This document shows positions 3,105 to 43,551 of a stretch of 64,000 bases of DNA, piece after piece. The stretch spans positions 1,063,285-1,127,284 of the forward strand of contig LLKB01000005.1 in assembly GCA_001414325.1 (NCBI GenBank), read 5' to 3'. Position 1 is the stretch's first letter, and each line of letters begins with the position of its first letter. The DNA is from Butyribacter intestini. Its GTDB lineage: Bacteria > Bacillota > Clostridia > Lachnospirales > Lachnospiraceae. A program made the position numbers and the translations under genes. The notes beneath the pieces were generated by a model. The model was not told the DNA's origin, ran no database searches, and was given only the letters and a program-made list of their open reading frames with translations.

Positions 3105-5930
3105 CTAATCATTCTTCTTTATAACAATCTTATTCATCGTTATGCCATGCGGTCTGTAAGCCACTCTGACATAATATTCTCCTTCTCCAAGTTTTCCAAT
3201 GGAAATTTCATTCTCATCTTCTTTTCCATTCGTTCCCTGGAATGTGATAGTTCCACGATAATCATTGTCTATAAATACGGATATAGGTATCTGCGTGTAC
3301 TCGTTATGCTGTGAAGTTATATTTATAACTGCACTGTAATCTCCTGCCATTGTATCTGCTATATTAAAGTAAATTCCATCATCATAAAGCACCTTTTCTG
3401 CAAGTTCGGCTGATACCTCGATATGGCTGCCTTTTGCTATGATTATTTCAAGTTCTCCGTCAGGTCTGAAACTTGTATCCCATTCAGGTGCGTACTCCGC
3501 AAGGTCAATTTTTCCAAGCTTTATCTGCATTGCAAGACTTCTAAGTGCAAATTTAAGTACATTCCTTGCATTTCTCTGAAGCTGCCCTCTTGTTATATTA
3601 CCTATCGTGTACTGTGCTTTTATATTGTCGATGGCATTTTCATTTTCAGTATCAGGGCATACCATAAATATATCATTCTGAGCCTGAACCATTGCAGCCC
3701 TGTTCTTTCTGTCCTGCTTTTCTCCTTCCCAGTTTGCAACCGCCCACCAGTCAGTCATAACAATGCCGTCAAATCCCCATTCTTTTCTGAGAACCGTTGT
3801 GCAAAGGTCATAATTCCCTGATGTCCAGAGTCCGTTAAATGGTCCGTATGTAGTCATTACCGAGCTGCATCCAGTCTCTTTTATCGCTATCTCGAAACAT
3901 TTTAAATAAATTTCCCTGAGTGCTCTCTCTGAAATCACACCCATTGCATCAGCACGGCGAAATTCCTGATTATTTGCACAGAAATGTTTTATCGTTCCCT
4001 CCACACCCGCTCTGTGAAGTCCTTTAAGCTCTGCCGCACATATCTTTCCGGTAAGAATCGTGTCCTCCGAAATATACTCATAATTTCTTCCATTTAAAGG
4101 GTGTCTGTGTATGTTCATGCCCGGTCCTAAAATAGTATCAATGCGGTTATATTTCATCTCGGCACCGAAATATTCAAAAAGTTCCCCGATAAGTTCATCA
4201 TTGAAAGTTGCCCCAAGTAATGTTCCTATAGGAAGTAAAAATGCCTTAGTTCCGCAGTCCATTCTTATTCCCGACGGTCCGTCAGCACAACAGAGTGCAG
4301 GTATTCCAAATCTTTCAAGCGACGGTGTAAGACCACCAAATGCGGCAGCAGTTCCAGGGGTTACTTTCATACTGCACATTCCCTCACCTCTCATAAGGCA
4401 CATGAGGTCTTCATCCGAAAGCTGTCCGATAAATGTATCAATATCTATCTTTCCATTTGCAACATCCTTAAGCGAATACCCCTCATCACCTGTAAATAAT
4501 ATCTCCTCAGGCATCTCACTCTCAATCCTATCCGAAAGGCTTATGGTTCTTAAAGGAACTTTCTCAAATCCCATACTGTATTCACATGAATTTTTCTGAT
4601 TTTTTTCTGCAGACTGTATTTCAATATTCTCATTACTATTTTCTACTGTCTGTTCTTCAATGTTTTCTGAAACCGGATGCATCCTTTCAAATTCCTCAAT
4701 CGGTGCAAGTGCTTCCTCAAGCTGTTCTATTACCTGAAATTCCTGCGAAAAACTTCCGATACATTGAGCCTTAGCAACACTGTTTCCCACATAAACTTTA
4801 TATTCACCGGCTTCAAGCACAAACGCAGACTTATGTCCTGTAATACCTGCGTCATCATACGATGCAAAATATGATTTAGGGCATGAGATACTTATATTTT
4901 CACTTTCATTTGCAGCTAACTCTTTAGTCTTTGCATATCCGGCAAATGTACGCACCGGTTTTCCAAGTTTTCCCTGAGGAGCTTCGATATAAACCTGTAC
5001 AACCTCTTTTCCTTCACAATCACCGGTATTTTTCACGGCTGTATCCACAACAACGCTGTTTTCATCAACATTTTTTACACTGCCGCTTATCTCAAAATCC
5101 GTATATGACATACCGAAACCAAACGGATACATCACTTTATCGGCGGCAACAGTCTGAAAATATTTATAACCTACATAAATATCTTCCACATAATAATTCT
5201 TGTCAGCATCTCCAAAATATGATGCTGACGGATAATCTTCTATATTATAAGCAATGGTATCAGTCAGCTTTCCGCTCGGACTAACCGTTCCGTCAAGAAC
5301 ATCGAGGACACCGTTGCCGCCCTCCTGACCGCCCTGCCAGACATACATAACAGCAGACGGCTTATACTCGTCCACCCATTTCATGTCGATTATATTTCCG
5401 ACATTTAACAAAACAACACTCTTTTCAAAAGTTTCAGTAACATTCTTAATAAGCTCACGCTCAGTCTGTGTCAGATAATAACTGCCCTCATCGGCTCTGT
5501 TGTCCTGATCCTCACCTGCTGTTCTTCCTATGATAACGATTGCCACATCATTTCTCTTTTCAGCTTCACAGATAAACTCCTCTGACAAAGGCATCTCTTT
5601 CTGCGACCATGGAACACTTCCCCAGCCGTTACCCTCATCAAAAGGATTTTCCTTTATCCACTTTTCATACTCCTCACAAATGCACTCGTCCACACTAATA
5701 TCCTCGCTTTTTCTCAAAGCATCAAGAATACTGACAACATACTTTGTATTAACAAGACCACCTGAGCCAAGACCGCCCTTATAATAATAAAAAGCTCCAA
5801 TACCAAAAACCGCAGTCTTTGTCCCTTTAACAAGCGGCAGCACACCGCCCTCATTTTTAAGAAGTACACATCCCTCAGCCACAGCCTGTCTGGCAGCTTT
5901 CGCATAATTTTTCTCATTTAACTCAAACAT
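3105..5930 (-). CDS. GH3 beta-glucosidase with permuted domain order
   Basis: This 941-residue cytoplasmic-looking protein has no signal peptide. It has the two GH3 halves in reversed order. Residues 10-260 are the alpha/beta sandwich domain that is normally C-terminal (AVAEGCVLLKNEGGVLPL), about 270-395 is a fibronectin III-like domain, and about 475-815 is the (beta/alpha)8 domain that is normally N-terminal, with nucleophile Asp727 in GFDGIVMTDWW and motifs KHFCANNQE and CCADGPSGIR. A C-terminal beta domain follows. This order is known from ruminal Butyrivibrio/Ruminococcus beta-glucosidases. It probably splits cello-oligosaccharides or other beta-glucosides, possibly those released by the cellulase at 41013. 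ATG 5930 was chosen because GAGG precedes it by five bases. Its leader carries the two-hairpin element described at 5935. Confidence 0.9.
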   Translation of the reverse strand: MFELNEKNYAKAARQAVAEGCVLLKNEGGVLPLVKGTKTAVFGIGAFYYYKGGLGSGGLVNTKYVVSILDALRKSEDISVDECICEEYEKWIKENPFDEGNGWGSVPWSQKEMPLSEEFICEAEKRNDVAIVIIGRTAGEDQDNRADEGSYYLTQTERELIKNVTETFEKSVVLLNVGNIIDMKWVDEYKPSAVMYVWQGGQEGGNGVLDVLDGTVSPSGKLTDTIAYNIEDYPSASYFGDADKNYYVEDIYVGYKYFQTVAADKVMYPFGFGMSYTDFEISGSVKNVDENSVVVDTAVKNTGDCEGKEVVQVYIEAPQGKLGKPVRTFAGYAKTKELAANESENISISCPKSYFASYDDAGITGHKSAFVLEAGEYKVYVGNSVAKAQCIGSFSQEFQVIEQLEEALAPIEEFERMHPVSENIEEQTVENSNENIEIQSAEKNQKNSCEYSMGFEKVPLRTISLSDRIESEMPEEILFTGDEGYSLKDVANGKIDIDTFIGQLSDEDLMCLMRGEGMCSMKVTPGTAAAFGGLTPSLERFGIPALCCADGPSGIRMDCGTKAFLLPIGTLLGATFNDELIGELFEYFGAEMKYNRIDTILGPGMNIHRHPLNGRNYEYISEDTILTGKICAAELKGLHRAGVEGTIKHFCANNQEFRRADAMGVISERALREIYLKCFEIAIKETGCSSVMTTYGPFNGLWTSGNYDLCTTVLRKEWGFDGIVMTDWWAVANWEGEKQDRKNRAAMVQAQNDIFMVCPDTENENAIDNIKAQYTIGNITRGQLQRNARNVLKFALRSLAMQIKLGKIDLAEYAPEWDTSFRPDGELEIIIAKGSHIEVSAELAEKVLYDDGIYFNIADTMAGDYSAVINITSQHNEYTQIPISVFIDNDYRGTITFQGTNGKEDENEISIGKLGEGEYYVRVAYRPHGITMNKIVIKKND

Positions 5931-5934
5931 AAAA

Positions 5935-6052
5935 ACCTCATTTCTGCACACATTTTTTGTATAATGTGAACTAATCTATATTTCATATATAAGATTTGTG
6001 TCAAGTGTACGCAGACACAAATCCTGAGTGTGAAAAATTTTATTTTTCACGC
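5935..6052 (-). promoter_or_regulatory. Two-hairpin 5' leader of the GH3 gene
   Basis: Read on the minus strand, hairpin A (arms GTGAAAAAT / TTTTTCAC, 6028-6052) is followed by hairpin B (TTGTGTC / GACACAA with loop TGCGTACACTT, within 5993-6023), a spacer, then AAAAAATGTGTGCAG and AAATGAGG directly before the ATG. The same elements in the same order precede the Mrp ATPase gene (12809-12901). The loop GTACAC can pair with GTGTGC just upstream of the Shine-Dalgarno through one G-U pair. Regulation is inferred. Confidence 0.5.
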
Positions 6053-6385
6053 TATCCTCAGTAAATATATATACTTTTTTCTCAAATTTTTTTATTTCCG
6101 AATATTATAGTTACTGTTCAAACCTACAATTCTACCATCACATCCCAGAAATTTCCACACAAATCATAATGTATTCTAATATATCTCATCCCAAAATAAA
6201 ACCATAAATTTATTATTTTTTGTATATTTATATCTCAACTTTTTCTAAAAACTAAATTTTTTGTCAAACGGCTATTTGTGGCAGGCTATGCTACCTGCTT
6301 ATAAAAGTAATTTTCGTTTACTATTTTTATGTAATAGCAAAATTTAATAATATCGAACTTTATATATAAATCCTTGCGATACACA
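6053..6385. other. AT-rich intergenic stretch
   Basis: No open reading frame or recognisable RNA is seen here. A TATAAT-like hexamer on the minus strand near 6103-6108 may belong to the GH3 promoter, but no convincing -35 box stands at the right distance. Confidence 0.4.
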
Positions 6386-6532
6386 GCCGTGAATAAGGGG
6401 TATTATTCCGACCGAATGGTGTTAGAACATCGTCGGTACTTGGCGAGCGTTTTGAAGCTCGCTTATGTACCGCTGCGAATGTTCTCCGAGCGAAAGCGTC
6501 CATGAGCACGGAATAATACCTTTATTCACGGC
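6386..6532. repeat. 147-bp palindromic repeat (GCCGTGAATA family), copy 1
   Basis: The ends are inverted repeats: GCCGTGAATAAGGGGTATTA at 6386-6405 pairs with TAATACCTTTATTCACGGC ending at 6532. The core GTTCTCCGAGCGAAAGCGTC (6481-6500) recurs in the copy at 16843-16934. Both copies sit 18-25 bp beyond the stop codon of a minus-strand gene. It could be a small non-autonomous mobile element or a processed or terminating RNA structure. Confidence 0.7.
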
Positions 6533-6550
6533 GTCCGTTCTTTATATTCA

Positions 6551-7471
6551 TTAGAAAACACCCTCATCCAGAAAAACCACACTGTCCCCCAATTTATCAT
6601 CAAGTATCTCCCACCCCTTTACATCATTCACGGCAAGTGCCCCGGATATCGCAATCACCGGAAATCTGTCGCACAGCTTTTTATAATAGTCTGTCATCTC
6701 CAAAGCTGAGCGAAGAACAGACACCGCCTTTGTATCAGGTGTCTCAGGCAGAATATTTTCCATAATATCCTCACTGTTTCTCTCATACATTGACACCATA
6801 GGATAAAAAGCTCTGTCAACACCTCTCTCATAGTCAGGCACTTTCCTGTCACACAGACTTTCCATACTGAAAGCAGGACTGTCACAGCAAGTCCTATACT
6901 CTACTCCCTCACACTGACAGCCGACCTCTTTTTCTATATAATTCTGCCATGTCTCCTCCTCGTTCCCCTGGGTATTTAACTTATCTTTTCTCTTAGAACT
7001 CTCCCCCGGAAAATAATACATATCCGCTTCTTTCCTATATAATCTCCCGGCCCCAGCATCAAGCATAAATACAACATCCTCTCCCATCTTAAACCCACAG
7101 CTTTTTACTGCCGATGACATCATCTCCATAACATCAAAAATATCATAGAGATAACCTCTTATGTCCCTTGTCAAAATATCATCATTTTCCTCGATTGATG
7201 ACATAGTCCCATATCTTATTTTCTTTTTTATTGATGTTACAATCTTTTGTCCCATATCTAACGCATTTTCATAAGATTTTGCCCCAACAGGCAGAAAAAC
7301 CACCTTTGCAAAATCAAGACTGCTGCCAAATATTTTTCCTTTCCTAAAAACATCGACGACTGGAATATTAAATTCCTTTCCCGAAAAAACGGCATAATAT
7401 TCAAAAGGAACATTCTTCCTACTCTCATCTGCTTTTCTTAACTTAAAAGAATTAGTTATAAACTTCCCCAT
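6551..7471 (-). CDS. Enolase-related pseudoenzyme
   Basis: The 306-residue protein resembles the central part of enolase but should not catalyse the reaction. NIPVVDVFRKGKIFGSSLDF and KVVFLPVGAKSYENAL correspond to the enolase stretch with GG.HA.N, FQEF and PVGA, but the catalytic Gln-Glu is Ala-Lys. FMLDAGAGRLY keeps the metal-binding Asp region (LDxA). VIAISGALAVNDVKGW corresponds to the IEDG...DDW motif but has Ser-Gly in place of Glu-Asp. The frame ends at FLDEGVF, matching GDDLF, so the rest of the barrel with its Lys and Arg/Ser residues is missing, as is the N-terminal domain. A Cys-rich insert (GCQCEGVEYRTCC) is unlike enolase. No partner is evident: the neighbour upstream is a membrane protein. 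The start has the weak ribosome site AGGGG. Confidence 0.6.
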   Translation of the reverse strand: MGKFITNSFKLRKADESRKNVPFEYYAVFSGKEFNIPVVDVFRKGKIFGSSLDFAKVVFLPVGAKSYENALDMGQKIVTSIKKKIRYGTMSSIEENDDILTRDIRGYLYDIFDVMEMMSSAVKSCGFKMGEDVVFMLDAGAGRLYRKEADMYYFPGESSKRKDKLNTQGNEEETWQNYIEKEVGCQCEGVEYRTCCDSPAFSMESLCDRKVPDYERGVDRAFYPMVSMYERNSEDIMENILPETPDTKAVSVLRSALEMTDYYKKLCDRFPVIAISGALAVNDVKGWEILDDKLGDSVVFLDEGVF

Positions 7472-7510
7472 AAAAATCCCCTTTCATTCTTAAACTATCA
7501 TTAGGCGTTT

Positions 7511-7536
7511 GCGAAACAACTTATAAGTAGTTTCGC
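7511..7536. repeat. Minimal copy of the GCGAAACTA palindromic repeat
   Basis: GCGAAACAA at 7511-7519 and TAGTTTCGC at 7528-7536 form the inverted ends, with only eight bases between. The same ends bound longer copies at 10359-10416, 38302-38350 and 40647-40728. The flanks TTAGGCGTT and AATGACCTA extend the palindrome. Half-copies are visible at 8024-8075 and 21650-21695. Confidence 0.6.
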
Positions 7537-7553
7537 AATGACCTATTAAAATG

Positions 7554-7985
7554 TCACCAAATCTTATAATTCGGCAGTTGACTTCCCAAAAGTATATATT
7601 CCATGTAATCATGCAATACTATCACCGGACATGACAATAAAATCCATAAATTTGTATATAGCAGACATATCTGCCCTTTAAGATTGTATTGCTGCCCGGA
7701 ATAGTCCCACACATTAAGATGCATCTGCCTGTTGACTATCATACCGACTACAAATTCAACACCGGTTATCATAAGACCACATATAATCATCTGCCCTATA
7801 AGCGATGCCCCATCACCTAACAAATTTTCAACAGCTCCTACGAGCATAAAGCATAATCCGCCTGCCAGCAGCATTGAAATATGGGAATATCCCCGGTATA
7901 AAATTTCAATTCCACAATAAAGAAAACCACCCGTCAAAAACATTATCAGATAAACCTGAAAATGATTCATACCTGTCCCCATCAT
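7554..7985 (-). CDS. Small integral membrane protein, CmpB / putative type IV ABC permease family
   Basis: The 143-residue protein has about four membrane helices (MFLTGGFLYCGIEILY; MLLAGGLCFMLVGAVE; MIICGLMITGVEFVVGMIV; ICLLYTNLWILLSCPVIVL). The pattern GVEFVVG...LNVWDYSGQQYNLKGQICL is the hallmark of the PF06541-type 'putative ABC transporter permease' family common in Clostridia. The substrate is unknown and no ATPase is adjacent. The start at ATG 7985 has AGGAGG five bases upstream. A second ATG follows directly at 7982. Confidence 0.75.
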   Translation of the reverse strand: MMGTGMNHFQVYLIMFLTGGFLYCGIEILYRGYSHISMLLAGGLCFMLVGAVENLLGDGASLIGQMIICGLMITGVEFVVGMIVNRQMHLNVWDYSGQQYNLKGQICLLYTNLWILLSCPVIVLHDYMEYILLGSQLPNYKIW

Positions 7986-8204
7986 ATGAACCTCCTTTGT
8001 AATACCATGTACTCTCGGTATCTTTGATTAAATTGTACAAATATAACCTATAAGTAGTTTCATAATTACTTAACCATTAACACTTTATAAGTATTATGTA
8101 TTTTTTTATCTAACTTATACTACTATTCAAATGTCAAAAATACAGTATTTTTTTCCATCATGTTGTGATAAAATATAAAATATAAAAATTTTATTTTTTT
8201 TAAT

Positions 8205-8310
8205 GTAACAGTTCAGGCATAAAAAGATAATTGGCAATACAATGAGCTTGTTCATTGTATTGTTAAGTACCTTTTTATGGTAGAATAGCCTTTCATTTCT
8301 GAAATGAGGG
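8205..8310 (+). repeat. Left half of a GTAACAGTTCAG mobile element, right half replaced
   Basis: GTAACAGTTCAGGCATAAAA through the TTTCATTTCTGAAATGAG hairpin is nearly identical to the first ~105 bp of the elements at 10439 and 12506. After 8310 the sequence diverges into another hairpin-rich stretch (GGAACAAATTTATTTGTTCC at 8337-8356) and no closing GGCTGAACTGTTAC end is found. It lies upstream of the hydrolase gene at 8451. Confidence 0.7.
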
Positions 8311-8450
8311 CAAAGCCCTTGCGAGCACGCTCAGATGGAACAAATTTATTTGTTCCATACTCACTCTGCTTTCGCATGAATAAAATATACTCCCGAAATC
8401 TTCTGAATAAAGAATTTCTAGAGTACATTAAATAAGAATCGAGGAAAACC

Positions 8451-9641
8451 ATGAATAAAGAAATTTTAAAAAGACTTGATGATGCCATATCATCAACACT
8501 TATAGGAAACTCAAAAGACCCTGATTGCAATGTCGGAGCAGCCATTTGTATTATAAAAGACGGCAAGGAAGTCTACAGAAATGAATATGGCGAAGCAGAC
8601 AAAGAAAATCATATTCCGATGGAAAGAAATTCAATTTTCAGATGTTATTCTATGACAAAACCGGTCACGGCAGTTGCCGTTATGACACTTGTTGAAAAAG
8701 GAATTATCGCTCTCTCAGACCCGGTAAGCAACTTTATCCCTAGTTTTAAAAACCAGACTGTTCTCACTGAAAAAGGCTATGTTCCTGCAAAAAGAGAAGT
8801 TGTCATTCAGGATCTTCTCAATATGACAGCAGGTCTTACTTACCCTGATGCTTCATTCCCTGCCGGAAAAGAAATGCAAAATATGATAGATAAGTATTAT
8901 GCCGATGTCGAAGCCGGAAATCCTATATCTACATATGACCTTGCCGTACTTATCGGTGAGCAGCCACTTGAATTTCAGCCGGGCGAGGGCTGGAGATACA
9001 GTTTTTGTGCCGATGTTCTAGGTGCGGTGATTGAAGTCGTAACCGGCAAGACATATGGCGAATACCTTAAGGAAACAATATTTGAGCCACTAGGAATGAC
9101 TGAAACTGACTTTTATGTTCCTATAGAAAAACAAAACCGTTTTATGCAAAACTACCAGTATATGCCTGAAACACAGACAATGGAGCCTTGCACCTGGCAG
9201 CACTTGGGACTTACATATATGCACAAAAAGAAACCGCTTTTTGAGTCTGGCGGAGCAGGACTTGTCTCTACGATAGATGACTATTCAAAATTTGTAAATA
9301 TGATGCTTGGTAAGGGAACGCTTGGAAATGTACGCATACTCGGCAGAAAAACAGTTGAGATAATGACAAGAAACAATCTCACACCAAAACAGCTTGAAAT
9401 GTATGACTGGGATACTATCAAAGGCTACGGCTACGGAAATCTCATGCGTGTAATGATGGATGTTCCTGCAAGCCAGAGTTTTGGCTCAGAGGGTGAATTT
9501 GGATGGGACGGCTGGCTTGGAAGTTATGTCGCAATGGACCCAAAAGAAAATCTTGCCATCATTTATGTAATACAAAAATGCGGCGGCAACGGCTACAGGG
9601 ATATTCAGGTTATAAGAGATATTGTTTATTCGGCACTATAA
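8451..9641 (+). CDS. Beta-lactamase-fold serine hydrolase / esterase
   Basis: This is a 396-residue member of the class C beta-lactamase / penicillin-binding-protein superfamily (PF00144). The catalytic SxxK is SMTK (in RCYSMTKPVTAVAVM), the second motif is the Tyr in GWRYSFCADVLG, and a late GWDGWLGSYVAMDP occupies the place of the KTG-like motif. No signal peptide is seen, so it is probably cytoplasmic and more likely an esterase or D-amino-acid amidase than an antibiotic-resistance enzyme. The ribosome site CGAGG precedes ATG 8451. It ends just before a strong bidirectional terminator. A partial mobile element occupies its upstream region. Confidence 0.85.
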   Translation: MNKEILKRLDDAISSTLIGNSKDPDCNVGAAICIIKDGKEVYRNEYGEADKENHIPMERNSIFRCYSMTKPVTAVAVMTLVEKGIIALSDPVSNFIPSFKNQTVLTEKGYVPAKREVVIQDLLNMTAGLTYPDASFPAGKEMQNMIDKYYADVEAGNPISTYDLAVLIGEQPLEFQPGEGWRYSFCADVLGAVIEVVTGKTYGEYLKETIFEPLGMTETDFYVPIEKQNRFMQNYQYMPETQTMEPCTWQHLGLTYMHKKKPLFESGGAGLVSTIDDYSKFVNMMLGKGTLGNVRILGRKTVEIMTRNNLTPKQLEMYDWDTIKGYGYGNLMRVMMDVPASQSFGSEGEFGWDGWLGSYVAMDPKENLAIIYVIQKCGGNGYRDIQVIRDIVYSAL

Positions 9642-9707
9642 CACTATCAGTATTCCTGACCATAATTTATTGAAACATATTAATTCTTTATTTTCAGCAC
9701 TTATCTT

Positions 9708-9756
9708 AGTAAAAACAGAGAGTATGAATTAAATGTTCATACTCTCTGTTTTTACT
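9708..9756. terminator. Bidirectional terminator
   Basis: A perfect 21-bp stem (AGTAAAAACAGAGAGTATGAA at 9708-9728 and its complement at 9736-9756) encloses a 7-base loop, with T-rich ends on both strands. It separates the convergent hydrolase and HPr-like genes. Confidence 0.9.
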
Positions 9757-9792
9757 TTTATTCATTATCCTTATTCATATAAAATAAATGTA

Positions 9793-10032
9793 TCAGATTT
9801 TTCCTTTCATCATATAATCAAGGAGTCTGTTTGCATCTTCGGGTTCTGATGCTACTATCTCAAGTTCTTTTACATATGTCGTGTTCATAAGCTGAGCCAT
9901 TGCCACAAACTGTGTAAGTTTACTTTTAAGATTGATTCTGTCTCCCTCTGATGATGTAAGTTCTACACGCCCTTTGCATTTGTCAACCACCTTAAAAAAG
10001 TCGTTGATGTCCGGAATATTTGTAATCTTCAT
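9793..10032 (-). CDS. HPr-like small protein lacking the phosphorylated His
   Basis: Starting at ATG 10032 (GAGG six bases upstream) the product is 79 residues, the size of HPr. DINDFFKVVDKCKGRVELTS and NLKSKLTQFVAMAQL resemble the second half of the HPr fold seen in the divergent 'HPr family' proteins of Lachnospiraceae. Residue 15 lies in a region without His, so PTS phosphotransfer is not expected. A longer reading from 10110 adds 26 residues with no family resemblance. The function is unknown and may be regulatory. Confidence 0.6.
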   Translation of the reverse strand: MKITNIPDINDFFKVVDKCKGRVELTSSEGDRINLKSKLTQFVAMAQLMNTTYVKELEIVASEPEDANRLLDYMMKGKI

Positions 10033-10358
10033 CCTTCGCCTCTTTTCTGCACCATCTTTTTCTAAACAAATCTGCCAGACGATACAAGATTCAGATTTGC
10101 TTTTTTCCAACTTTTTACTTATATTTATTTTACAATATTATATTTATAATATCAAGTGGCAAATTTTCTGTCTTTATATTAAATATAAGAATTTTCCGCC
10201 TGCAACACCGCAGACACAAACAATAACAAATACATTTAATCCCTACTCAGCTAAATTTCAATTCAATTTGGAATGGTACGCAGCACAAAAGTATAGTATA
10301 TTATATATTATGATGCAGATTACAAATTTAACTAAACATTGTATTATTTCAGATAAAT

Positions 10359-10416
10359 GCGAAACTATCATAAATCTTGATTAAATTGTGCAGATATAAC
10401 ATATAGTTAGTTTCGC
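10359..10416. repeat. GCGAAACTA palindromic repeat
   Basis: This 58-bp element has ends GCGAAACTA and TAGTTTCGC. The interior TCTTGATTAAATTGTGC (10375-10391) and the end AACATATAGTTAG are shared with the copy at 40647-40728 in inverted orientation. It lies just left of the mobile element at 10439. Confidence 0.7.
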
Positions 10417-10438
10417 AATTACCTATAATATTATTTCT

Positions 10439-10621
10439 GTAACAGTTCAGCCATAAAAAGATAATTGGCAATACAATGAGCTTGTTCATTGTATTGTTAA
10501 GTAGCTTTTTATGGTAGAATAGCCTTTCATTTCTGAAATGAGTAAACAAAAGCTGCAAAGCAGCGACTGACAGCTCGCTGGCAGGTTTATGAATGTAAGA
10601 AATGCAAGGCTGAACTGTTAC
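10439..10621 (+). mobile_element. MITE-like element, complete copy with 8-bp target duplication
   Basis: This 183-bp element begins GTAACAGTTCAGCC and ends GGCTGAACTGTTAC. It is flanked on both sides by the identical octamer TTATTTCT (10431-10438 and 10622-10629), a target-site duplication. The interior has nested stems (CCATAAAAAG / CTTTTTATGG around AATACAATGA / TCATTGTATT) and GCTGC/GCAGC hairpins, with no coding capacity. The insertion ends 25 bp before the acetyltransferase ATG, directly in front of its ribosome site. Confidence 0.9.
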
Positions 10622-10646
10622 TTATTTCTAAAAAAGGAGACTTATC

Positions 10647-11192
10647 ATGAATGTTTTCTATCAGACGGAGCGTCTTATTTTAAATATATTGCCGCCTTTA
10701 TGGGCACCTGCAGTTTTGAATTTTTATAAAAATAATAAGGATGTTCTTGAGGGCGTTGAGCCTGCAAGAAATTCACGATTTTATACCGAATCTTTTCAGA
10801 AAGCAAATCTCTCGGTAGAGTACAACAGCTTTTTTAAAAATAATTATATGCGCTATTGGATTTTTGACAAAAAAAATCCCGATTTTCCTATCGGGACTAT
10901 TTGTTTCAGCAATTTTCTAAAAGGTGCTTTTAAAAGCTGTATGGTCGGTTATAAACTCGACAAAAATCATACCGGAAATGGCTATATGACGGAAGCACTC
11001 CGCTTTCTTCTCCCCGAACTCTGCCATAATTATCCCCTGCATCGCATAGAAGCCTATGTAATGCCTGATAACACAAGCTCCATACGGCTTCTCAACAATC
11101 TGGGATTTGTTAAAGAGGGATATCTCCACTCATTCGCAAAGATAAATGACAAATGGGAAGACCATCTTCTCTATACTTACTTTAACGGATGA
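10647..11192 (+). CDS. RimJ/RimL-type GNAT N-acetyltransferase
   Basis: The 181-residue protein follows the ribosomal-protein-acetyltransferase pattern. An N-terminal strand (YQTERLILNILPP) precedes CMVGYKLDKNHTGNGYMTEA, which contains the acetyl-CoA loop region (normally Q/RxxGxG/A, here HTGNGY). IEAYVMPDNTSSIRLLNNLG and FVKEGYLHSF are typical C-terminal motifs. The acceptor is unknown. Ribosome site AAGGAG precedes ATG 10647. A mobile element lies immediately upstream, so its promoter must lie in or beyond that insert. Its 3' end overlaps the convergent DUF6128 gene by 16 bp. Confidence 0.85.
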   Translation: MNVFYQTERLILNILPPLWAPAVLNFYKNNKDVLEGVEPARNSRFYTESFQKANLSVEYNSFFKNNYMRYWIFDKKNPDFPIGTICFSNFLKGAFKSCMVGYKLDKNHTGNGYMTEALRFLLPELCHNYPLHRIEAYVMPDNTSSIRLLNNLGFVKEGYLHSFAKINDKWEDHLLYTYFNG

Positions 11193-12370
11193 ATCCAATA
11201 GCCGAATGTACCGTTTTTGTCCTTAACTTCCCCTATAGGCTGAAAATATATAAAGCCATGCTGTCTTGCTATATTTTCATCATAGCTGTTATAAATCCCC
11301 GGCGAACCAACAGCATACTGCGTCTCTATGTCAGAAATCTTTATTTTTGCAAATATGATATGCCTGTAGCTGCAATAACCATGCAATAAAAATGTATTGT
11401 TTGCAAGTACCCACATTTTTATTGGAAGACAGCCTATGTCTTTCAATTCAATACGCACACTTTTATCTATTATTCCTGATGCAAACGGATACATCACCGG
11501 AAATGTGCTAAGTATCCTCTCCCCGAAATCTTTGTCGTTTTCCTCATAAACACTAGCTTTTATCACCATCTTTTCCGTATTTATGTCACTTTCCGCTCTT
11601 GTCTCAGCAACACTTGCGACCTCATCAGAGTCCATATTCTGCCCTGCATACTTTCCGAATTTTTCTGTATCATTCATCTCATATCCTTTGTCTGCCAAAC
11701 TATTATCTGATAAATTATATACCTGCATACACTCATCACTAACATTTTCAAATATATTATTTTCATTTAGTTTCTCTGCATTTTCTATATCTGATGTATT
11801 ATTTTCATTCAGTCTTTTTTCATTTTCCATATCAAATACATTTTTCTCTTTTACGCTCTTCATATTGCCACTCTCATAAATATTTTTTCTCCCTGTATTG
11901 CTGCTCTCAGATATATTGTTTTCATTCAGTCTCTTTGTATTTTCTGTTTCAAAAATGCTGTCGGCAGGCATCTCCCTTGTTTTTGAAACAATCTCTATCT
12001 GCCCCAATTTAACCTCATCCCTCACCCATGAAGTCGCAAAAAACATTTCATCCGATATGTAAACCACAAGTCCGTCTATGTCCTCAAATGAATAACCGGT
12101 CTGCTCAATATTGTTTTTATCAAGAGCAAATCTGCTGACAAGATTTCCCGATTTTGTCCCCATGTCCGACACTTCTATGCATTTTGCACCATGCTCTTTT
12201 TGAATATAAAGATATACTTTTGGAAACACTTCAAACGGAACCATCCTCATCTGGACAGTAAACCGGCACTGCACATCCATAAGTTCAATTCTTACAAATC
12301 CTGTATTCTGGCTTTTTGCACCATTTATATATTTGTATAAGTAAGATACCATTCTTTTATACTGACCCAT
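11177..12370 (-). CDS. DUF6128-type protein of unknown function with Asn-rich repeats
   Basis: The 397-residue protein has two conserved ends and a variable middle. Residues 1-125 (MGQYKRMVSYLYKYINGAKS ... GYSFEDIDGLVVYI) and the last ~110 (GCLPIKMWVLANNTFLLHGY ... GTFGYWIHPLK) look like the Lachnospiraceae family catalogued as DUF6128. The middle, about 140-245, is a low-complexity stretch in which RLNENN, RLNENN and KLNENN recur about every 20 to 40 residues. There is no signal peptide or membrane helix. The start ATG 12370 has GGAGG six bases upstream. No role can be stated. Confidence 0.65.
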   Translation of the reverse strand: MGQYKRMVSYLYKYINGAKSQNTGFVRIELMDVQCRFTVQMRMVPFEVFPKVYLYIQKEHGAKCIEVSDMGTKSGNLVSRFALDKNNIEQTGYSFEDIDGLVVYISDEMFFATSWVRDEVKLGQIEIVSKTREMPADSIFETENTKRLNENNISESSNTGRKNIYESGNMKSVKEKNVFDMENEKRLNENNTSDIENAEKLNENNIFENVSDECMQVYNLSDNSLADKGYEMNDTEKFGKYAGQNMDSDEVASVAETRAESDINTEKMVIKASVYEENDKDFGERILSTFPVMYPFASGIIDKSVRIELKDIGCLPIKMWVLANNTFLLHGYCSYRHIIFAKIKISDIETQYAVGSPGIYNSYDENIARQHGFIYFQPIGEVKDKNGTFGYWIHPLK

Positions 12371-12505
12371 AACCTGCCTCCACTTTATAGCATAAATTTT
12401 TGTGCATAAACTAGTTACCGGTCACAAATATTGTAAACAACATCAAAACCTCGTCACTGTCCACGCATACATTGCACGCAGCAACAAAAAATATGCACAA
12501 CTTTA

Positions 12506-12689
12506 GTAACAGTTCAGCCATAAAAAGATAGTTGGCAATACAATGAGCTTGTTCATTGTATTATTAAGTATCTTTTTATGGTAGAATAGCCTTTCATTTC
12601 TGAAATGAAATAAACATAAGCTGCATAGCAGCGACTGACAGCTTGCTGGCAGGTTTATGAATGTAAGAGATGCAAGGCTGAACTGTTAC
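12506..12689 (+). mobile_element. MITE-like element, second complete copy with 8-bp target duplication
   Basis: This 184-bp element has ends GTAACAGTTCAGCC / GGCTGAACTGTTAC and differs from the 10439 copy at few positions. It is flanked by the octamer CAACTTTA on both sides (12498-12505 and 12690-12697). The flanking octamers of the two copies differ, which shows independent insertions. Confidence 0.9.
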
Positions 12690-12744
12690 CAACTTTATGA
12701 TATAAATATATGATATGTTTACAAAGATTATGACAAATGTATTT

Positions 12745-12773
12745 TTGACACTCCAAAACTAAAATGTTATACT
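12745..12773 (+). promoter_or_regulatory. Sigma-A promoter of the Mrp ATPase gene
   Basis: TTGACA (12745-12750), a 17-bp spacer and TATACT (12768-12773). The predicted start near 12780 gives a leader of about 128 nt that contains the two-hairpin element. Confidence 0.8.
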
Positions 12774-12808
12774 ACGATATTGAAGTTAATAAATAATTAT
12801 GGATGATA

Positions 12809-12901
12809 GTGCGAAAAATCCGATTTTTCGCACACAAGATTTGTGTCTGCGCACACTTGACACAAACTTGATATGCCCAAAAAATGTGTGCAGAAATGAG
12901 G
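12809..12901 (+). promoter_or_regulatory. Two-hairpin 5' leader of the Mrp ATPase gene
   Basis: Hairpin A is GTGCGAAAAATC / GATTTTTCGCAC (12809-12833). Hairpin B is TTGTGTC (12841-12847) / GACACAA (12859-12865). The hairpin B loop contains GCACAC (12851-12856), which is complementary to GTGTGC (12886-12891), seven bases before the Shine-Dalgarno GAGG (12898-12901). This could form a pseudoknot that blocks the ribosome site. The same layout precedes the GH3 gene (5935-6052). Confidence 0.55.
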
Positions 12902-12907
12902 ATTATT

Positions 12908-13741
12908 ATGAGTGAAAATTGTAATCATGACTGCTCTAGCTGTGGTGAAGCCTGTGCAAGCCGTGACCCTAAGAGTTTTATAGAAAAACCAAATGAAAAA
13001 AGTACAATCAAAAAAGTAATCGGTGTTATAAGCGGAAAAGGCGGTGTCGGCAAATCAATGATTTCTTCAATGCTTGCCGCAAACTTCCAGAAAAAAGGCT
13101 ATAATACAGCCGTTCTTGACGCAGATATAACAGGTCCGTCAATCCCTAAGGCTTTTGGTATTACAGAGAGAGCCAGAGGTGATGAAAGCGGAATATACCC
13201 TGTTTATTCAAAAACGGGAATACAGACAATGTCCGTAAATCTTCTTCTTGATGATGCGACTGACCCGGTCATATGGCGTGGTCCTGTTATCGCCGGAACA
13301 GTAAAACAGTTCTGGCAGGATGTTATATGGACTGATGTTGATTATATGTTTGTAGATATGCCACCCGGAACAGGTGATGTAGCACTTACGGTTTTCCAGT
13401 CAATACCGGTTGACGGAATCGTTATCGTAACATCTCCTCAGGAGCTTGTATCAATGATAGTTGCAAAAGCCGTAAAAATGGCACAGATGATGAATGTTCC
13501 TATTATAGGAATTATTGAAAATATGAGTTATGTGGAATGTCCGGACTGTGGAAAACACATCGAAGTATTTGGAAAAAGCCACCTTGCTGAAGTCGCCGCA
13601 GTATATAAACTGCCGATACTCGGTCAGATACCTATGACTCCTGCTATTGCAGCCGCAAGCGATGCCGGCGATGTAGAAAGTCTTGATGTTGACTGGTTTG
13701 ATAAAGCAATAGAAGCTATAGTTGATGCCACTAAAGAATAA
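12908..13741 (+). CDS. Mrp/NBP35-family P-loop ATPase (Fe-S cluster carrier)
   Basis: The 277-residue protein has a deviant Walker A GKGGVGKS at residues 43-50, then VDMPPGTGDVALT and SPQELVSMIVAKAV. A C-terminal CPDCGKH supplies the CxxC used by Mrp/Ind1 proteins to hold a bridging 4Fe-4S cluster. The N-terminus CNHDCSSCGEAC adds four Cys, as in NBP35-type members. It is expected to carry or insert Fe-S clusters in the cytoplasm. ATG 12908 was chosen over 12884 because GAGG lies six bases before it. The gene is monocistronic, with its own promoter, a structured leader and a terminator at 13842. Confidence 0.9.
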   Translation: MSENCNHDCSSCGEACASRDPKSFIEKPNEKSTIKKVIGVISGKGGVGKSMISSMLAANFQKKGYNTAVLDADITGPSIPKAFGITERARGDESGIYPVYSKTGIQTMSVNLLLDDATDPVIWRGPVIAGTVKQFWQDVIWTDVDYMFVDMPPGTGDVALTVFQSIPVDGIVIVTSPQELVSMIVAKAVKMAQMMNVPIIGIIENMSYVECPDCGKHIEVFGKSHLAEVAAVYKLPILGQIPMTPAIAAASDAGDVESLDVDWFDKAIEAIVDATKE

Positions 13742-25673: not shown

Positions 25674-25759
25674 ACAATATTACCTCTTTTCTGCACACTG
25701 TTTTTGTGCATATCAATTCCGCACATAAACTAATCCATATTTCCCTGTACACTGTTTTC

Positions 25760-43460: not shown

Positions 43461-43508
43461 TGTAATTTAATACTCTTTTCTACACACATTTCTAAGTACA
43501 TCGGTTTT

Positions 43509-43551
43509 GGACAAGTGCACTCAGACACAAATCCGTGTGTGAAAACTTTTA
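43509..43551 (-). repeat. Degenerate copy of the two-hairpin leader element
   Basis: On the minus strand TTTTCACACACGGATTTGTG and TCTGAGTGCACTTGTCC match hairpins A and B of the Mrp/GH3 leaders, but the closing GACACAA is lost. It lies beyond the ilvE stop, not in front of a gene, so it is a relic. Confidence 0.4.

Follow-up and report, generated by a model that had tools for sequence, protein, structure and literature searches.

Compact H-type pseudoknots at the ribosome site are known from the SAM-V and preQ1 riboswitches, and small, multi-copy, hairpin-bearing elements with patchy gain and loss are known as miniature inverted-repeat transposable elements (MITE), repetitive extragenic palindromic (REP) and palindrome-associated transposable (PATE) elements, including IS200/IS605-type derivatives. 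Features of both kinds were found in the leader analyzed here, which precedes the Mrp ATPase gene (mrp) and a GH3-family gene in the window, a stretch of 64,000 nucleotides of Butyribacter intestini DNA (contig LLKB01000005.1, positions 1,063,285 to 1,127,284). Based on comparisons of sequence, the leader is predicted to be an H-type pseudoknot ending just before a Shine-Dalgarno (SD) sequence, and it forms part of a dispersed, apparently mobile cassette. The compact pseudoknot at the ribosome site is common to the cassette and the two riboswitches; unlike them, the cassette occurs in up to tens of copies per genome before unrelated genes with no metabolite-linked set, its SD lies outside the pseudoknot, and it has no Rfam match. 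The cassette is small, multi-copy, hairpin-bearing and patchily gained and lost like the MITE, REP and PATE elements, whereas its sites are fixed between an SD and a start codon.

No description of the cassette was found in the open-licence literature, as judged by titles and the beginnings of abstracts. With Rfam release 15, no match at the gathering score was obtained in the window. At E ≤10, five matches fell within 12700-13000, all far below their gathering scores, and 19 copy-bearing loci yielded a single match, to a tRNA in another part of locus L104.

The nearest known kinds, as far as the passages on them tell, appear to be the start-associated sequences (SAS) of Cluster K mycobacteriophages and the TAACTGA repeats of Beggiatoaceae. 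SAS and their extended form (ESAS) are oriented repeats located immediately upstream of many start codons, with a function given as unknown; a 13-bp core is described together with 17-bp inverted repeats, the inverted repeat standing in front of about half, and from phage to phage most ESAS sites accompany the same gene families (PMC3203893). The cassette is likewise an oriented repeat immediately before start codons (41 of 42 contexts of its hairpin B), but its targets are not conserved and its insertion between SD and start codon is visible, while the passages on the phage repeats describe neither a pseudoknot nor such an entry (PMC3203893). The SAS core GGGATAGGAGCCC was present in 0 of 65 leaders of the B. 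intestini genome (≤2 mismatches). The TAACTGA repeats are dispersed near start codons of unrelated genes, and a post-transcriptional role was proposed for them; the heptamers have little SD character, and an SD also occurs in about 10% of the repeat-bearing intergenic regions (PMC4679880). They share with the cassette the dispersed, start-proximal location at functionally unrelated genes, while in the cassette the SD and the pseudoknot are part of the unit, and neither a pseudoknot nor an SD-to-start entry appears in the passages describing those repeats (PMC4679880).

Structure of the Leader in the Window

An earlier reading of the window, made from its sequence only, had reported the same leader before two genes on opposite strands, and both copies were found at the positions given: hairpin A, hairpin B and GTGTGCAGAAATGAGG, then the start codon, before mrp (+) and before the GH3 gene (-). 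In the Mrp copy, hairpin A (GTGCGAAAAATCCGATTTTTCGCAC, 12809-12833) was the left module of the cassette. The stem of hairpin B (S1) consisted of a 5' arm (TTTGTGTC, 12840-12847) and a 3' arm (GACACAAA, 12859-12866) enclosing a loop at 12848-12858. An A-rich linker (L3, 12867-12884) led to the 3' strand of the second helix (S2; TGTGTGCAG, 12885-12893), whose 5' strand was located at 12847-12855, and to the cassette SD (AAATGAGG, 12894-12901), the S2 3' strand and SD together reading TGTGTGCAGAAATGAGG (12885-12901). Hence, the predicted pseudoknot ended directly 5' of AAATGAGG, 14 nt before the start codon. The open reading frame (ORF) of mrp began with the ATG at 12908 (12908-13741, +), and its product was assigned by Pfam to the NUBPL/ParA P-loop ATPases.

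The GH3 copy on the - strand comprised hairpin A (6028-6052), the S1 5' arm (6014-6021), the loop of hairpin B holding the S2 5' strand (6003-6013), the S1 3' arm (5995-6002), a linker holding the remnant of a further hairpin, C (5953-5994), the S2 3' strand (TGTGTGCAG, 5944-5952) and the cassette SD (AAATGAGG, 5936-5943); hairpin A and both S1 arms were also supported by folding, and the last two features by pattern search. The GH3-family gene started at the ATG 5930-5928 (ORF and Pfam, 3105-5930, -), and its domain order was GH3_C, Fn3-like and GH3 N-terminal domain.

Some details of the sequence-only reading were revised. The linkers, given there as about 12 and about 60 nt, were measured from hairpin B to TGTGCAG as 20 nt (Mrp) and 44 nt (GH3). 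The proposed pairing of 12851-12856 with 12886-12891 (6 bp) is possible, but the register backed by other genera was longer, with nine pairs between C12847-A12855 and T12885-G12893, including a single G-U pair in the Mrp copy and two G-U pairs in the GH3 copy. The C-to-T change in the GH3 copy, read as keeping the pairing by a G-U pair, carries little weight alone, with no covariation signal within the genome, where the loop and the SD-side strand hardly varied. Free folding of single copies yielded S2 for the Mrp leader and S1 for the GH3 leader; this left the choice undecided because the folding program cannot draw pseudoknots.

Copies in the Genome of B. intestini

The 15-mer TGTGCAGAAATGAGG gave 38 exact and 28 one-mismatch matches in the B. 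intestini genome (G000; 3.61 Mb, 12 contigs) and the reversed pattern gave none, thus chance was excluded for the shared leader. A BLAST search with the Mrp leader returned 52 matches, of which the best were full-length with 85-96% identity and the rest were partial or on the reverse strand. Hairpin B alone was located at 47 places (≤3 mismatches; control 0). Four places were left out and the remaining 43 gave 42 distinct contexts, L006 and L037 being identical around hairpin B. In 41 of these 42, an SD motif (≤3 mismatches) and a start codon followed. The exception was L024, where another repeat separated hairpin B from its SD. Copies lying mostly away from gene starts had been named beforehand as a refutation of a regulatory leader; such a distribution was not observed, although one decayed copy in the window was not at a start.

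Hairpin B (≤6 mismatches) was found upstream in 41 of the 65 distinct TGTGCAGAAATGAGG-type sites read. The linkers of these 41 sites ranged from 14 to 59 nt, some containing the third hairpin C, and a very short reading frame followed at two of them (L006, 3 codons; L075, 11 codons). Hairpin C (GTGAAATATA..TATTTCAC or GTGCGAAAGT..ACTTTCGCAC) was observed between hairpin B and the SD strand in L003, L017, L018, L022, L069 and L082, and since it was optional, the cassette was regarded as modular. At L002, L004, L009, L016 (the tpiA start) and L023, the extended SD TGTGCAGAAATGAGG was present without hairpin B, several of these sites retaining TATGCACAAAAAA before it. A second dispersed repeat (..TATCAAGGAAGTCCC..TTCTATTG..) adjoined or interrupted several cassettes (L024, -, 1294-1515; L155, 1059-1157; L022, upstream), and it is this repeat that parts hairpin B from the SD in L024.

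Conservation of the Pseudoknot

Covariance models were built from 19 copies of the B. intestini genome (R1) and from a second S1 type (R2), the input copies being chosen by hand. Out of 176 candidates, 168 copies from 51 genomes were collected; the eight dropped ones were duplicates, were cut by contig ends or lacked a recognizable SD and start, and two of them, L162 and L172, looked decayed, their SD-side strand being missing or disrupted. By script, S1 was absent from two of the 168 copies.

The loop of hairpin B paired better with the SD-side strand of its own copy than with that of others. With one copy per genome (n = 51), the pairing energy was -13.16 against -9.79 for swapped partners (sd 0.32; 0 of 2000 permutations), and with one copy per genus (n = 25) it was -13.80 against -10.54 (sd 0.44; 0 of 2000), poor pairing being seen in two of the 25 genus representatives (G202 and G394). 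Examples of loop and strand were CUGCGCACA/UGUGUGCAG in the window Mrp copy, CUGCGCUGC/GCAGCGCAG in G215, CUGCGCGGC/GCCGCGCAG in G323 and CUGUAUGGC/GCCAUGCAG in G292. In an ungapped count over 50 representatives (one per genome within the genus, one per genus elsewhere), 7-9 of the nine S2 pairs were formed in 45, with a mean of 7.84 against 6.87 for swapped and 5.87 for letter-shuffled partners.

Individual pairs were counted only on an alignment of 17 copies of one S1 type (A3), because in the MAFFT alignment of 37 mixed copies (A2) the two S1 types were misaligned with each other. In A3, paired cells amounted to 96.4% against 89.6% after shuffling (0 of 500), double changes occurred in 8 of 15 pairs (0 of 500) and the covariation was 0.280 against 0.156 (0 of 500); the pairing was destroyed when the partners were slid. 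S1 also covaried among the copies of single genomes, as judged by the permutations reaching the observed value (G011, 0/1000; G004, 2/1000; G013, 2/1000; G016, 10/1000; G000, 15/1000). Further, the mrp leaders of G000, G011 and G016 each had, by eye, a distinct loop sequence that was complementary to the strand of the same leader. The G011 loci L173-L185 mostly lacked hairpin A, and their S1 stems were strongly diverged yet paired, as if an old set had been kept in place.

Hence, two helices, the second between the loop and a downstream strand, were found with compensatory changes in both between species, as is expected of an H-type pseudoknot. The comparison of species showed that the predicted structure was kept by such changes over a wide sequence divergence. 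The loop-SD pseudoknot of the sequence-only reading was therefore borne out by compensatory changes across 25 genera; the proposed check of the stems and of the loop-SD pairing with a covariance model returned such changes in S1 and S2, and the independent drift of loop and strand that was to refute it was not seen between genera.

A local hairpin pairing GCACA of the linker with TGTGTGC was rejected as a real fold or a switch partner. Its energy was weak (-5.22 against -4.82; 21/1000 reach); in other genera 118/1000 reached it, and it equaled or exceeded the B loop in strength in no more than 3 of 51 genomes.

Insertion Between the Native SD and the Start Codon

The close relative G013 was compared with the B. 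intestini genome, the identity being roughly 80-97% in aligned stretches. Seventeen B. intestini sites had a match behind the start, and 11 were drawn. Clean empty sites were found in G013 at three of these (GH3, L037 and L045). At the GH3 gene, G013 had the empty sequence ACGGAGGATTTTTATG, while the B. intestini genome had ACTGAGGAT, the cassette and AAATGAGG-TTTTTATG; the old native SD (GAGG) of this gene was recognized left of the cassette at 6056-6059 (-) from the comparison of ACGGAGGATTTTTATG with ACTGAGGATAGCGTG. The rplI gene had GGAAGGAGAAATATAGAAATG in G013 and GGAAGGAGAAATATAA-cassette-GAGGATAAAATG in B. intestini, and a DUF624 gene had CAGATAGGAGGATAAATTTTAATATG and CAGATAGGGGGGAT-cassette-GAGGGATAATATTTATATG, respectively. 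The reverse direction was observed as well. Behind an ACT-domain gene, G013 carried a cassette in place of the 18-nt stretch with its own SD that is seen in the B. intestini genome, and it carried another before the counterpart of the gene at window position 7471 (-), where no cassette was present in B. intestini.

At two of the 11 drawn sites, before trx and an ACT gene, the cassette was retained in both genomes; the S2 strands were unchanged and the linkers differed, in these two genes only. At another two (L001 and L022), hairpin B was missing from G013, which had the SD motif in its usual or an altered form. As for the remaining sites, L015 and L082 were empty with an unalignable left flank, and L056 and L065 were not alignable.

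Of 48 distinct contexts, 41 had an SD-like motif in the 12 nt to the left of hairpin A, compared with 3 and 4 in the two adjoining control windows, and the distance from the old SD to the cassette varied from 2 to 10 nt. The 48 contexts were those in which a strict script detected hairpin A among the 168 copies, some others being missed. It was concluded from the filled and empty versions that an A-bearing cassette had entered the SD-to-start gap of several genes. A dispersed repeat bringing a ribosome site had been named by the sequence-only reading as the alternative to a regulatory leader, and it was this insertion that the filled and empty genes and the old upstream SDs showed. A single left boundary for all copies was unsupported for those without hairpin A. 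A classical MITE was rejected because no terminal inverted repeats were found by eye and no target duplication was detected.

Target Genes

Forty downstream proteins were searched against Pfam: 37 of the 41 behind B-bearing sites, that of L025 (hairpin B one base shorter) and those of two sites with the SD motif only (L016, tpiA, and L023, an HD protein). The targets were unrelated and included thioredoxin, ribosome recycling factor, L9, TIM, Mrp, GH3, GH43, a fucosidase, Fur, polyphosphate kinase, PTS enzyme I, SpoIIIAH, Sir2, chemotaxis receptors and others; for two of the 40 proteins, no Pfam family was found at E 1e-6. Among 164 targets of 51 genomes, 5 of 12137 cross-genome pairs were similar; for the upstream neighbors, the corresponding count was 7 of 11773. 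Judged by their predicted products, the targets form no pathway and are shared between species no more than neighboring genes are. A translational riboswitch linked to the genes of one metabolite was not supported, as the Pfam functions were unrelated and the targets not conserved. The suggestion of a translational switch or a protein-binding pseudoknot held for the pseudoknot, while its switch or binding-protein part was unsupported.

The mrp gene was present in 27 of the 28 genomes of the genus. An R1 match was found upstream of it at five of these 27 loci, which by eye were pseudoknots in G000, G011 and G016 and relics in G013 and G026. The mrp leader was also found in one genome of another genus.

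Distribution and Carriage

At E 0.01, R1 matched 32 of 61 relatives, including every one of the 28 genomes of the genus, two of which barely passed the limit, and gave two matches in G043 of another family of the order (best 1.3e-5). At E 1e-4, it matched at least 26 of 397 genomes of the family. R2 matched at least 57 of 299 family genomes and at least 56 of 298 genera, the B. intestini genome counted; in a sample of the class it matched 8 of 391, five of the same family (again including B. intestini) and three weak ones outside. These counts are lower bounds because the models were made from chosen copies and only 12 or 17 candidates per genome were scored in the family scans. In G004 as in G008, numerous copies at different genes were nearly identical even in their linkers.

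No plasmid match was obtained for the cassette. Eighteen records filed as phage matched; the five opened were all unannotated fecal contigs, four of them with genes of bacterial appearance by eye (thioredoxin, LacZ-like, metal ABC transporter and membrane proteins). Such 'Bacteriophage sp.' contigs (e.g., MT836374.1 and MT837311.1) may be bacterial DNA, because the cassette precedes bacterial-looking genes in them. Two exact patterns gave no match in viral contigs. Carriage by plasmids or phages was rejected on these grounds, with five of the 18 phage records opened. A further variant of the cassette, with hairpin A reading GATTGAAAAATAAAATTTTTCAATC, was noted in the fecal contigs filed as phage.

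Mobilization by an IS200/IS605 (Y1) transposase was not supported either. The Y1 family PF01797 was present in 6 of 13 genomes and absent from seven, including G000, G008, G011 and G025, and R1, run on 11 of the 13 Y1 loci, found no copy in them at E 0.01 (best 0.032). A promoter carried by the cassette was considered, given that hairpin B contained TTGACA on its 3' side in many copies of the B. intestini genome. Most G004 and G008 copies had TTGCCA instead and many other genera lacked TTGACA, therefore it was not a general feature of the cassette.

Proposed Mechanism and Alternative Explanations

We proposed that the cassette is a mobile-type unit whose retained pseudoknot acts in cis on translation initiation, and this was considered probable. 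The unit spans about 90-150 nt and consists of hairpin A (often), the H-type pseudoknot and its own SD, AAATGAGG. As the filled and empty genes showed, A-bearing copies enter the short gap from the native SD to the start codon and leave the old SD upstream; the entered gene is then preceded by the cassette SD at normal spacing. In the mRNA, the pseudoknot would immediately precede the SD, bordering the landing site of the ribosome, and may act on the initiation of the entered gene as a platform, an insulator or an adjustable obstacle. A function in place was favored because S1 covaried within genomes and the S2 strands were unchanged in the two retained copies, although these were two genes only. 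A wider proposal, given about even chances, is that a mobile element targeting the SD-to-start gap swaps in its own pseudoknotted ribosome site, so that control is rewired species by species while selection keeps the knot working.

Several observations weigh against a mobile unit with a functional pseudoknot. No mobilizing gene was found, and no target-site duplication was seen (flank match 4.02 against 3.96 for swapped flanks; 164/500 reach). In copies without a script-detected hairpin A, which include some A-bearing ones missed by the script, no old SD was found beside hairpin B (9 of 83 against 11, 10 and 16), and where another hairpin stood upstream instead of A, an SD was present in 7 of 31 against 2, 3 and 7. 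Some genes retained the SD motif only; hairpin B is dispensable there, since the motif persists without it. AAATGAGG was also a common SD outside cassettes, occurring 4-7 nt before ATG 138 times (reversed control 10). A third, decayed copy in the window (43463-43531, -; R1 E 3.7e-7), with S1 broken, lay not at a gene start but between a gene end and a terminator-like hairpin. In A3, the number of pair types was not above that of the shuffles (69/500 reach). In G008, whose copies are nearly identical, S1 gave no within-genome signal (821/1000), and in G000 neither S1 nor S2 gave one at a fixed register. The within-genome permutation of S2 gave no signal in any of the six genomes (G000, 923/1000; G004, 992/1000; G008, 853/1000; G011, 136/1000; G013, 91/1000; G016, 509/1000); hence, support for S2 comes from the comparison between species.

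These last results also bear on the rival that fared best, a purely mobile element, which was considered rather unlikely. The hairpins and the pseudoknot would then be ends read by a mobilizing enzyme in single-stranded DNA or RNA, the SD would make the insertion harmless, and no regulation would occur. The random targets between species, the gain and loss at orthologous genes, the near-identical copies of G004 and G008 at different genes and the loss of hairpin B at genes that kept the SD all agree with it. Recognition of ends would also yield compensatory changes between species, and S2 shows no covariation within genomes. However, dead insertions should decay, whereas S1 covaries among the copies of single genomes, and the trx and ACT copies of G000 and G013 kept their S2 strands while their linkers differed, few as two genes are.

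A role of the cassette as an mRNA stabilizer was judged improbable. Clostridia use RNase J, and in Bacillus, SD-bound ribosomes and 5' structures block this enzyme. A compact pseudoknot could thus halt 5'-to-3' decay before the SD, letting the coding part outlive the leader. Its place immediately upstream of the SD at the 41 B-bearing sites would suit this, and so would the assignment of the close relative G013 to Clostridia; nothing, however, singles out decay over initiation. Least probable of all was a conserved post-transcriptional regulon or riboswitch, a defined gene set under one signal, since the structured leader at the SD, its presence in all 28 genomes of the genus and its occurrence before mrp in three of 27 of them and in one genome of another genus stand against functionally diverse targets shared no more than neighboring genes and an R1 match at only five of 27 mrp loci, two of them relics.

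If the proposal of a mobile unit acting on initiation is true, translational leaders could spread as mobile parts and place many unrelated genes under one RNA structure without a change of promoter. With as many as tens of copies in a genome and dozens of genera carrying them, a large natural set would be at hand for comparing the effect of the knot between filled and empty versions of genes. A question is also raised about the machinery by which DNA is placed with such precision in the gap from ribosome site to start codon.

Other Relics in the Window

Two further relics were recognized on the - strand by sequence and R1. The first (25675-25733) consisted of the linker and TGTGCAGAAAAGAGG at a gene start, with hairpin B absent here and present in G013. 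The second (10030-10079) was GGTGCAGAAAAGAGG, which precedes what may be an internal start of the ORF 9793-10110 (-).

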